From Devosia sp. 67-54 (GTDB taxonomy: Bacteria > Pseudomonadota > Alphaproteobacteria > Rhizobiales > Devosiaceae), in the NCBI RefSeq assembly GCF_001899075.1, contig NZ_MKVA01000005.1, forward strand, positions 744,001 to 808,000: DNA of 64,000 nucleotides, read 5' to 3'. The notes below the pieces were generated by a model. It saw nothing but the letters and a program-made list of their open reading frames with translations. It was not told the DNA's origin and ran no database searches. This document shows positions 632 to 28,231 of this stretch, piece after piece. The first letter of the stretch is position 1. Each line of letters opens with the position of its first letter. The position numbers were made by a program, and so were the translations under genes.

Positions 632-1773
632 TCAGGGGGAAGTGCCGAGCCGCCACAGCGACACCACTTCGCGCGCCCGGGCGAAATGCAGCGGATCGGC
701 GCGGTCGCGGGCGCCTCTGGGGGAGGGGGCGGCGTCGAGCCGGCCGAGGGCGCGCAGGCCGGCGGCGGCGATCATGGCGGCGAGCTCGCCGGGGGCGCGC
801 AGACCCAGATGCTCGGCCAGGTCGGACAGGATCAGCCAGCCCTCGCCGCCGGGCAGCAAATGCGCCCCGAGACCGGCGAGGACGGCCCGCAGCATGGCGC
901 CGTCCGGGTCGTACACCGCGGCCTCCAGCGACGTGCCGGCCCGGGCCGGCAGCCAGGGCGGGTTGCAGACGATCAGCGCGGCGCGGCCGTCGGGGTAGAG
1001 CCGGCCGGGCACCAGCGTCACCCGATCGGCGACGCCCAGCCGGGCGAAGGCGTCGGCGGCCGAGGCGAGGGCGCGCGGGGCAATGTCGGTCGCCACCACC
1101 CGCGGCACGCCGCGCTGCAGCAGCACCGCCGCCAGCACGCCGCTGCCGGTGCCGAGGTCGAAGGCAACGTCCACCCCGGCGGGCAGCGGCGCCGTGCCGA
1201 CGAGATCGACATAGTCCTGCCGGGTCGGCGGGAACACGCCGTAATGCGGGTGGATCCTCGTTCCACCCAGCGCCCGGATCGGAACACCGTTCTTGCGCCA
1301 TTCGTGCGCGCTGATCATCGCCAGCAGGTCGCGCAGCGGCAGCACCGCCTCGCCGGCGAGCGGCCCGACCGCTTCGGCGACGGCGAGGGTCACGTCGGGG
1401 GCCCGCCGCAGCGGCACCTGGCCGTCGCGCAGCGGCACCAGCAGCAGCCCGAGCAGGTTGGCGCGCTGCGCCTGTGCCTGCCGGTAGGCGTGGAAGGCGG
1501 CCGCCGGATCGTCGGGGGCAGGGGCCTGCGCCGGCGGTCGATGCGGCGGCCCAGCGCCTGCAGCATCTGCCGGGCGTTGTGATAGTCGCCGCTCCACACC
1601 AGCGCGGTGCCCTGCGACACCAGCCGGAAGGCCGCATCGGCGGTGGTCTCGTCGCCGGCTGCGACGGCGCGGTTCGGCGCCGGGCCGCCGCGCGCCGACA
1701 CGAAGCGGGCGCGCTGCACCGCGCCGTCCGCCTCCCACGCGATGTCGCCGGCCGCGTCGCTCATGGCGGTCAT
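632..1773 (-). pseudogene. SAM-dependent methyltransferase, interrupted by a one-base frameshift
   Basis: The product would be about 380 residues. The N-terminal ~80 residues are read in one frame (from MTAMSDAAG to ALGRRIDRR), and the rest in another (from about DDPAAAFHAYRQAQ to the end). The second part has a class I methyltransferase fold with a SAM-binding motif (FDLGTGSGVLAAVLL) and the NPPW catalytic motif of HemK/PrmC-type and RsmC-type enzymes. The phase change needs one extra base between about 1514 and 1540; the run of five G at 1514-1518 is a natural place for a lost base. Either the gene is truly broken or the assembly has an indel. The substrate is unknown. The start may instead be the ATG four codons further in (1764). 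Confidence 0.65.
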
Positions 1774-1804
1774 TTACCGTTGATTCACGGTTACAGCGAT
1801 GTTG

Positions 1805-1834
1805 CTAGACCAGAACAGATTGAGAACATATAAG
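1805..1834 (+). promoter_or_regulatory. Predicted SOS promoter of the microprotein gene
   Basis: CTAGAC at 1805-1810 resembles the alphaproteobacterial -35 element CTTGAC. TATAAG at 1829-1834 fits a -10 element, and the spacing is 18 bp. The LexA-type operator fills the spacer, the expected arrangement for repression. Transcription would start around 1841, about 20 bp before the ATG at 1862. Confidence 0.5.
1813..1827 (+). promoter_or_regulatory. LexA operator (GAAC-N7-GAAC)
   Basis: GAAC at 1813-1816 and GAAC at 1824-1827 are separated by seven bases, an exact match to the alphaproteobacterial SOS box GTTC-N7-GTTC read on the other strand. A third GAAC follows at 1834-1837, but with six-base spacing. 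The lexA gene itself lies in this window and has operators of the same form. Confidence 0.7.
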
Positions 1835-1861
1835 AACAAAACAGCAACAACGGAGGTCGAG

Positions 1862-1960
1862 ATGCTGATGTTCCTGAAGGACGCCATGGCGATGGTTGCG
1901 CTTTGCGGCTTCACCGGTGCGACGCTGGCCTGGATGGATATGGCCAGCCGACTCGTGTGA
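1862..1960 (+). CDS. SOS-associated single-span membrane microprotein (SidA-like candidate)
   Basis: A 32-codon reading frame begins at ATG 1862, eight bases after a strong Shine-Dalgarno (CGGAGG), and ends in TGA at 1960. The product starts MLMFLKDAMAMVALCGFTG and ends LAWMDMASRLV, so it can form one hydrophobic membrane span with few charges. The promoter upstream carries a perfect LexA box, and dnaE starts 60 bp downstream. From established work, Caulobacter SidA is a tiny SOS-induced inner-membrane protein that blocks division. Similar size, topology and regulation make an analogous role likely here, but this is inference. It is too short for routine gene callers. Confidence 0.6.
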   Translation: MLMFLKDAMAMVALCGFTGATLAWMDMASRLV

Positions 1961-2019
1961 CCTGTGGATTGAAGACACTCCGGGCTGGCCCGATCCGCAC
2001 GGAGGTTTAGGACCCTCTG

Positions 2020-27437: not shown

Positions 27438-28163
27438 TCAGTATTTGCGCAGCAGGCCGACCAGCCGGCCCTGCACCTTCACCCGGTCGGGCGGGAAGAT
27501 GCGCGTCTCGTAGGCCGGGTTGGCGGCCTCCAGCGCCACCGAATTGCCGCGCCGGCGCAGGCGCTTCAGCGTCGCCTCCTCCTCGTCGACCAGCGCCACG
27601 ATGATCTCGCCGGTCGCCGCGGTATCCTGCTTCTTGATGATCACGGTGTCGCCGTCGAAGATGCCGGCGTCGACCATCGAATCCCCGCGCACTTCGAGCG
27701 CATAATGCTCGCCGCCGGTCAGCATTTCCGGCGGCACCGCGATGGTGTGGCTGTGGCTCTGGATCGCCTCGATCGGGGTGCCGGCGGCGATGCGGCCCAT
27801 CACCGGAATGGAGACCGGACGGCCCGCTTCCGACATGCCCGGCATCGGCGGGGCGCTGCGCGCCGGCGGCGCCGCCACCCGGCCGAGCGTGCCTTCGATG
27901 ACGTTGGGCTCGAAGCGCGCCTTGCGGCCGCCCAGCGACGGGTTCATCGAATCGGGCAGCTTGATCACCTCCAGCGCCCGGGCCCGGTTGGGCAGGCGGC
28001 GGATGAAGCCGCGCTCCTCCAGCGCCGTGATCAGCCGGTGGATACCCGATTTGGAGCGCAGATCCAGCGCGTCCTTCATTTCGTCGAAGGAGGGGGGAAT
28101 GCCGCTCTCCTTCATGCGTTCATGGATGAACATGAGGAGTTCATGCTGCTTGCGCGTGAGCAT
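27438..28163 (-). CDS. lexA: LexA repressor
   Basis: The SOS regulator and self-cleaving serine peptidase, 241 residues. An N-terminal winged helix ([20 protein letters not shown]; recognition region around residues 28-45) is joined by a long Pro/Ala-rich linker to the S24 domain. The Ala127-Gly128 cleavage site lies in RIAAGTP, Ser162 in RGDSMVDAG, and Lys200 in ATLKRLR. Two operators and a consensus-like promoter lie directly upstream, so autoregulation is expected. Confidence 0.97.
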
Positions 28164-28185: not shown

Positions 28186-28231
28186 GAACAAAGGCTGAAC
28201 GATGTATAGATGTTCCGGCTCTGTTCTGCAA
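28186..28231 (-). promoter_or_regulatory. lexA promoter with two LexA operators
   Basis: Read on the minus strand: TTGCAG (28231-28226), a 17-bp spacer, then TATACA (28208-28203). One operator (GTTC-N7-GTTC, 28212-28226 on the plus strand) overlaps the spacer. A second (GAAC-N7-GAAC, 28186-28200) lies just past the -10 element. Two exact boxes at a consensus-like promoter explain autorepression. Confidence 0.8.

Follow-up and report, generated by a model that had tools for sequence, protein, structure and literature searches.

SidA is described as the main SOS division inhibitor of Caulobacter, a 29-amino-acid (aa) inner-membrane protein that interacts with FtsW (PMC4211646), and loss of lexA is reported to produce filaments through sidA (PMC12700426). 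The LexA box of Caulobacter is given as GTTC-N7-GTTC (PMC9578287, PMC12700426); a first-pass annotation of the DNA analyzed here had named both the tiny inhibitor and, for alphaproteobacterial LexA, this box. Here we examined a 64,000-nucleotide (nt) stretch of Devosia sp. 67-54 (contig NZ_MKVA01000005.1, positions 744,001 to 808,000, forward strand), referred to throughout as the window, in which a 32-codon open reading frame (ORF) lies directly upstream of dnaE, behind a promoter that holds a box of the form GAAC-N7-GAAC, the reverse complement of the Caulobacter form. This ORF is almost certainly a genuine gene, conserved and preceded by a promoter that contains a LexA box, and it probably encodes a diverged SidA-type, LexA-repressed inhibitor of late division. 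In those parts of the literature that the survey covered, no SOS division inhibitor was named for Alphaproteobacteria besides Caulobacter, and we found no published report of SidA beyond Caulobacter relatives or of a LexA-controlled microprotein before dnaE, an earlier mention in Modell 2011 or da Rocha 2008 not being excluded.

Other described systems share some of these traits. In Sinorhizobium meliloti, ribosome profiling (Ribo-seq) detected sORF25, a translated small ORF (sORF) in the 5′ untranslated region (5′-UTR) of dnaE1, but a role as upstream ORFs (uORFs) has been suggested for such sORFs, and the term "SOS" is absent from the main text of that paper (PMC10117765). Models of SidA, SosA and ChiZ on FtsW, of low confidence, appear in a 2026 paper (PMC13396833). 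YneA, SosA and ChiZ of Gram-positive bacteria are likewise damage-induced small membrane proteins acting on late division, but they are larger and differ in sequence and control; we set them apart without sequence comparison. TisB and DinQ of E. coli are short SOS-controlled single-helix peptides but act as membrane toxins; TisB is typically under antisense RNA control, and we know of no dnaE linkage for either. DinQ in particular has been described as a toxic single-transmembrane SOS peptide (PMC3567139).

Direct reading of positions 1805–2020 bore out the first-pass layout to the base: a perfect GAAC-N7-GAAC box in a CTAGAC-N18-TATAAG promoter, a CGGAGG Shine-Dalgarno sequence and a 32-codon frame before dnaE. 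The features are given below, with counts that refer to a set of 30 loci, namely our own and those of 29 relatives, the best-scoring of 40 matching genomes.

1805..1834, plus strand: promoter, with −35 CTAGAC (1805–1810), an 18-nt spacer and −10 TATAAG (1829–1834); direct reading, with the TAGAC/TGGAC and ATATAAG positions kept in a 17-sequence alignment
1813..1827, plus strand: LexA (SOS) box GAACAGATTGAGAAC within the promoter spacer; 27 of 30 loci have the exact box and 3 have GAAC-N7-GAAT
1834..1837, plus strand: third GAAC half-site, which begins on the last base of the −10; pattern in 22 of 30 loci
1851..1856, plus strand: Shine-Dalgarno sequence CGGAGG; direct reading, GGAG strongly conserved
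1862..1960, plus strand: 32-codon ORF for a putative SidA-like microprotein, ATG 1862, TGA 1958–1960 (stop included); homologues, selection on the frame, predicted single helix
2020..5484, plus strand: dnaE, replicative DNA polymerase III alpha subunit, 1154 aa; Pfam PHP, DNA_pol3_alpha, DNA_pol3_finger, HHH_6

The encoded protein is MLMFLKDAMAMVALCGFTGATLAWMDMASRLV, and 59 bp separate the ORF stop from the dnaE ATG at 2020. A longer in-frame reading from ATG 1799 (53 aa) was rejected; because it would run through the promoter and the LexA box, ATG 1862 is the likely start. A generic promoter scan with a stricter consensus made no call at 1805..1834, and the promoter is assigned because it is conserved in the alignment, not because of that scan.

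In a search at E up to 1, 40 of 61 genomes (our own and 60 others) contained a match for the 32-aa protein. Within its own family, 34 of 37 genomes matched at E up to 0.1 and one more (G005) at E 0.78, and the search at E up to 1 gave no match in G025 and G027. All 30 loci encode a frame of 32–33 aa, and in 27 of them the exact LexA box stands 47–51 nt before the start; the remaining three (L026, L033, L038) carry GAAT as the second half-site. Because these loci were picked by protein similarity, it is the box count that is informative in this set. The first-pass annotation had proposed that loss of the frame or box in close relatives would speak against its reading, and no such loss was seen. 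In 26 of the 30 loci a DnaE start motif followed within 160 nt, and L037 has it at 497 nt; the search did not find it in L025, L026 or L029.

Among the 27 coding sequences of exactly 32 codons, the mean pairwise difference at codon positions 1, 2 and 3 was 0.36, 0.20 and 0.51. The proportion of nonsynonymous differences (pN) was 0.20 against 0.43 for synonymous differences (pS), calculated over the 188 of 351 pairs with pS between 0.05 and 0.6, and the resulting ratio of 0.47 is rough because sites are partly saturated. Reading the same sequences out of frame by one or two bases gave pN of 0.25 and 0.30 and pS of 0.28 and 0.16. This pattern of substitution indicates that the 32-codon frame is under purifying selection. 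K6, D7, A10, F17 and D26 were invariant in 24 homologues, and W24 nearly so.

We then surveyed the DNA upstream of dnaE, choosing loci by DnaE. A search with the DnaE N-terminus matched 274 of 289 genomes of the class, 120 of 121 of the order (Hyphomicrobiales) and, among the named genomes, which were reached through CtrA loci, 36 of 38. Upstream regions were taken from 120 class genomes outside the order (the most DnaE-similar among the matches listed), 111 order genomes (our own included) and the 36 named genomes; 261 of these 267 loci could be oriented (L090, L096, L217, L239, L258 and L348 were dropped for unfixed orientation), with no duplicates over the last 300 nt. A perfect LexA box occurred within 650 bp upstream of dnaE in 97 of the 261 loci, compared with a mean of 5.1 and a maximum of 11 in ten dinucleotide shuffles, and in 1 of 80 control regions of ~500 bp upstream of ctrA. 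When a box was required together with a hydrophobic ORF of 25–38 aa starting 25–130 nt after it, 76 of 261 loci passed, against 3 on the reverse strand, none in the ten shuffles and 0 of 80 upstream of ctrA. Allowing one mismatch in the box raised the count to 90 of 261 (against 7 on the reverse strand and, in the shuffles, a mean of 1.2 and at most 4). Taken singly, a short ORF or such a pattern is a common find, and we considered a chance pairing of a random short ORF with a random 8-base pattern; the conservation, the selection on the frame and these controls refute it, leaving it a probability of practically nil. A chance origin of box and frame is excluded.

By group, the strict filter called our own locus (1/1), 47 of 107 order loci and 20 of 36 named genomes, and, among the most DnaE-similar of the matches listed, 8 of 117 class loci outside the order, which is an undercount. 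Within the order, calls came from 27 of the 51 families examined and, with our own family set aside, from 46 of 104 genomes. The filter errs both ways: a few called ORFs are doubtful by sequence, as the reverse-strand count predicts, and the hydropathy cut misses visible members with perfect boxes in Devosia oryzisoli (L184), Brevundimonas poindexterae (L210), G555 (L337) and G342 (L398). With at most one mismatch, 27 of the 36 named genomes were called; D. oryzisoli, B. poindexterae and Pleomorphomonas (L198) are three of the other nine, and six show nothing upstream of dnaE (Hyphomicrobium twice, Methylocystaceae, Oryzicola, Brevundimonas bacteroides and Hyphomonadaceae). Hyphomicrobiales and the Caulobacter side thus carry the feature commonly, though with exceptions, and other groups more rarely. 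A class search with an own-family profile (A1) had matched 8 of 289 genomes at E up to 0.05, our own included; the narrow-family reading drawn from it is superseded by this survey.

Three further observations concern the arrangement of these loci. In L198 (Pleomorphomonas) a member-like stretch, VRDVAALGALVLFGTMLILVL, lies ~150–250 nt before dnaE with no LexA box close by, and LexA control may have been lost there. In L189, L191, L192, L194 and L195 (Bradyrhizobium, Rhodopseudomonas, Afipia, Tardiphaga) the microORF is preceded by a pair of LexA boxes that face opposite ways and lie 18 nt apart. In L052 the microORF match (G119:C1:1400224-1400301) lies ~1.6 kb upstream of dnaE (1398405-1398614), so the dnaE linkage can loosen.

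In Caulobacter the same position is occupied by SidA itself. The ORF before dnaE is 29 aa long in Caulobacter hibisci, Caulobacter D5, BK020 and AP07 and in two Phenylobacterium genomes, and the NCBIfam model NF033228 (div_inhib_SidA, cut-off 35 bits) scored C. hibisci at 72.4 bits (D5 is identical), BK020 at 71.6 and Phenylobacterium at 69.3 and 56.1. By these scores, the ORF before dnaE in the named Caulobacter genomes is SidA, which supports the first-pass proposal of a SidA-like or new SOS microprotein and makes the link to SidA closer than an analogy. The locus number of sidA is CC1927. Published designations agree with this placement, being CC1926 for dnaE (PMC1839093) and CCNA_02004 for sidA (PMC10769358). 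At the same place in Brevundimonas poindexterae and Asticcacaulis the scores fell below the cut-off (20.5 and 26.5 bits), and the ORFs before dnaE in Robiginitomaculum, Parvularculaceae and Oceanicaulis gave no match to this model. Across the class draw the SidA model matched 20 of 289 genomes at E up to 0.1, with full-length matches in G555 (E 0.001) and G342 (E 0.01), both before dnaE behind double LexA boxes. None of the 289 exceeded the cut-off, which shows, as far as this model goes, that the curated SidA family is narrow, to an extent not measured by a draw that evidently holds no canonical-SidA genome. Of 14 control genomes the model matched four, Caulobacter vibrioides among them, and one passed the cut-off.

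The relation was also approached from the other side, with a held-out profile of 85 Hyphomicrobiales sequences from which the Caulobacter side was excluded. A first ranking, in which SidA came 104th and Robiginitomaculum L212 scored 4.8 bits, was not used, as its decoys contained true family members; it was replaced by 167 clean decoys and by 4000 shuffles for each of 8 of the 11 held-out sequences (Robiginitomaculum L212, Caulobacter AP07 and Phenylobacterium L211 were left out). The C. hibisci SidA scored 19.9 bits, compared with 4.6 for the best of the 167 unrelated hydrophobic ORFs. The number of shuffles reaching the real score, for whole-sequence shuffles and for those keeping the first seven residues, was 0 and 0 for C. 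hibisci, 0 and 1 for BK020, 0 and 0 for Phenylobacterium Root1290, 0 and 1 for Brevundimonas, 2 and 8 for Parvularculaceae, and 8 and 15 for Robiginitomaculum L405. These scores point to sequence homology with SidA, in the sense of a statistical relation between short helices that falls short of proof of descent.

In other respects, too, the window protein resembles SidA. Both genes lie directly upstream of dnaE, an arrangement shared with Caulobacter and Phenylobacterium that stands outside the published definition of SidA, and both have a LexA-type box in the promoter, that of Caulobacter itself being GAAC-N7-GAAT. At 32 aa the window protein is close in size to SidA (~29 aa, one membrane helix), and AlphaFold2, run on the single sequence, predicted one helix over residues 2–31 (pLDDT 89). 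A gap-free match pairs R6E7 of SidA with K6D7 and includes A10, V12, G16 and F17; SidA lacks the W-M-D...R-L-V C-terminus of the window family. At E up to 1, the window protein matched no Pfam or NCBIfam family, and weak MrpF-type matches of one homologue (E 0.03–0.04, below cut-off) were taken as chance.

Several results weigh against the SidA-type reading. The one hydrophobic span that the first-pass annotation had seen holds as a single predicted helix, but its hydropathy is no more than moderate: the best 17-residue Kyte-Doolittle mean is 1.70, over a stretch that includes K6 and D7. NF033228 gave the window protein no match at E up to 1 and its genome none at E up to 0.1, so that, the curated cut-off not being reached, the protein is not fileable as SidA under that model. 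The held-out profile fitted Asticcacaulis (37 and 67 of 4000 shuffles) and Oceanicaulis (1 and 95) weakly, and roughly half of the order genomes sampled, like most of those sampled from the rest of the class, yielded no such feature. Expression, phenotype and function have been demonstrated for Caulobacter SidA alone, the window family being known here from sequence. On balance, the window protein is best described as a diverged SidA relative at the same locus, and a SidA-like mode of action is most likely because position, control, size, predicted helix and profile agree.

On this diverged-SidA reading, LexA seated between the −35 and the −10 would shut the microORF promoter; upon DNA damage, RecA would trigger LexA self-cleavage and the promoter would open. 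The single-helix microprotein would then build up in the inner membrane and, like Caulobacter SidA, block FtsW and septal peptidoglycan synthesis in the late divisome until the damage has been repaired. We infer for this microprotein that it is SOS-induced, inserts into the membrane and inhibits division with FtsW as its target. It would belong to a fast-diverging family fixed upstream of dnaE, with SidA as the one member of known function.

A peptide of TisB/DinQ type, which would lower the membrane potential and slow growth instead of blocking FtsW, would share the size class, the single helix and the SOS control; residues 8–25 of the window protein contain no charged residue, and profile relatedness and shared position favor SidA, making this alternative very unlikely. 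We also considered that translation of the ORF might tune dnaE expression as a uORF leader, the peptide having no target of its own. The persistence of the ORF before dnaE across many families fits such a leader, as does the role suggested for sORF25 and other S. meliloti 5′-UTR sORFs (PMC10117765). For a leader, position and translation should matter and sequence should not, but the peptide sequence is itself under selection and retains a helix in which the K/R-D/E, A, F and W positions are kept; the distance to dnaE varies widely, and the Caulobacter counterpart SidA works in trans. We therefore consider a pure leader unlikely; the ORF may have a double role, as leader and as peptide.

The dnaE gene is presumably transcribed from the same ~250 bp, because the gene upstream of the microORF is divergent and a scan of the window found no terminator-like site between the ORF and dnaE. 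It is possible that the LexA promoter feeds dnaE and places it under SOS control, in line with the first-pass suggestion that this promoter may raise dnaE expression after damage. Reportedly, dnaE may already have been listed as a LexA target in Alphaproteobacteria by Erill in 2004. A term search of the main text of a 2025 Caulobacter SOS paper did not find dnaE named there (PMC12700426). That the box was selected for SOS control of dnaE, the ORF being secondary, draws on the need for dnaE to start within this region, but the frame itself is under purifying selection, and in many relatives dnaE begins 200–450 nt past the ORF start, leaving room for a promoter of its own; we regard this as highly improbable. 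Two conserved blocks could belong to such a separate dnaE promoter:

1773..1794, plus strand: conserved block TTTACC..GATTCACGGTTAC upstream of the promoter, TTAAC in most relatives; 17-sequence alignment, strict pattern in 9 of 30 loci
1963..1972, plus strand: conserved block TGTGGATTGA between the ORF and dnaE; TGTGGA or TGTGAA within 25 nt past the stop in 21 of 30 loci

The TTAAC..GATTCA block sits ~40 bp upstream of the LexA box and is possibly a second promoter or a regulator site, perhaps a CtrA-like one; the block at 1963–1972 resembles part of a DnaA box. The divergent gene upstream encodes a methyltransferase domain (~1390–1773 and 632–1738, minus strand) and shows an apparent frame change at ~1500–1550, with its likely start and its main domain in different frames, which seems to be a sequencing error or a damaged gene.

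The box pattern also occurs elsewhere in the window, where GAAC-N7-GAAC was found 5 times compared with a mean of 1.2 in 100 shuffles (one shuffle reached 5), and in the genome, with 80 sites against 30 for a reversed control pattern; by itself the pattern is modest evidence. The presumed repressor is encoded in the window:

27438..28163, minus strand: lexA, presumed repressor; TIGR00498 179.4 bits (cut-off 110.95), PF01726 once in the genome
28186..28226, minus strand: two LexA boxes in opposite orientation (28186–28200 and 28212–28226) just before the lexA start; pattern search and direct reading

These two boxes, which are among the five in the window, serve as an internal positive control, with autoregulation of lexA likely. 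Elsewhere in the genome a box of the same type precedes uvrA (L445; the partial protein matches at E 9e-166), and another precedes an rmuC-like gene (L453), whose match at E 4e-8 stays far under that model's cut-off. At L442, L443 and L446, LexA-type boxes also stand before genes that by eye resemble those for a radical SAM protein, an MT-A70 methyltransferase and a membrane monooxygenase or desaturase.

The SidA-type division brake probably has a longer history and a broader distribution than the database family of SidA implies. A bolder extension, which we offer tentatively and would expect to fail rather than hold, is that SidA, far from being peculiar to Caulobacter, is the only studied branch of an ancient SOS checkpoint family linked to dnaE, which would span Hyphomicrobiales and the Caulobacter side of the Alphaproteobacteria, its linkage kept since one LexA-controlled transcript would couple division arrest to the supply of replicative polymerase after damage. 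S. meliloti sORF25 is predicted to be a member, similar to the 28-aa ORFs of L196 and L275 and with a LexA box ~45–50 nt ahead of its start. If the SidA-type reading is true, many rhizobia, methylotrophs and relatives would carry an unannotated brake at a predictable place before dnaE, and damage-induced division arrest in these bacteria would be testable with one gene of ~100 bp. Dozens of natural variants of a minimal division-blocking helix would be at hand, and the question of SOS control over the replicative polymerase would arise there as well.
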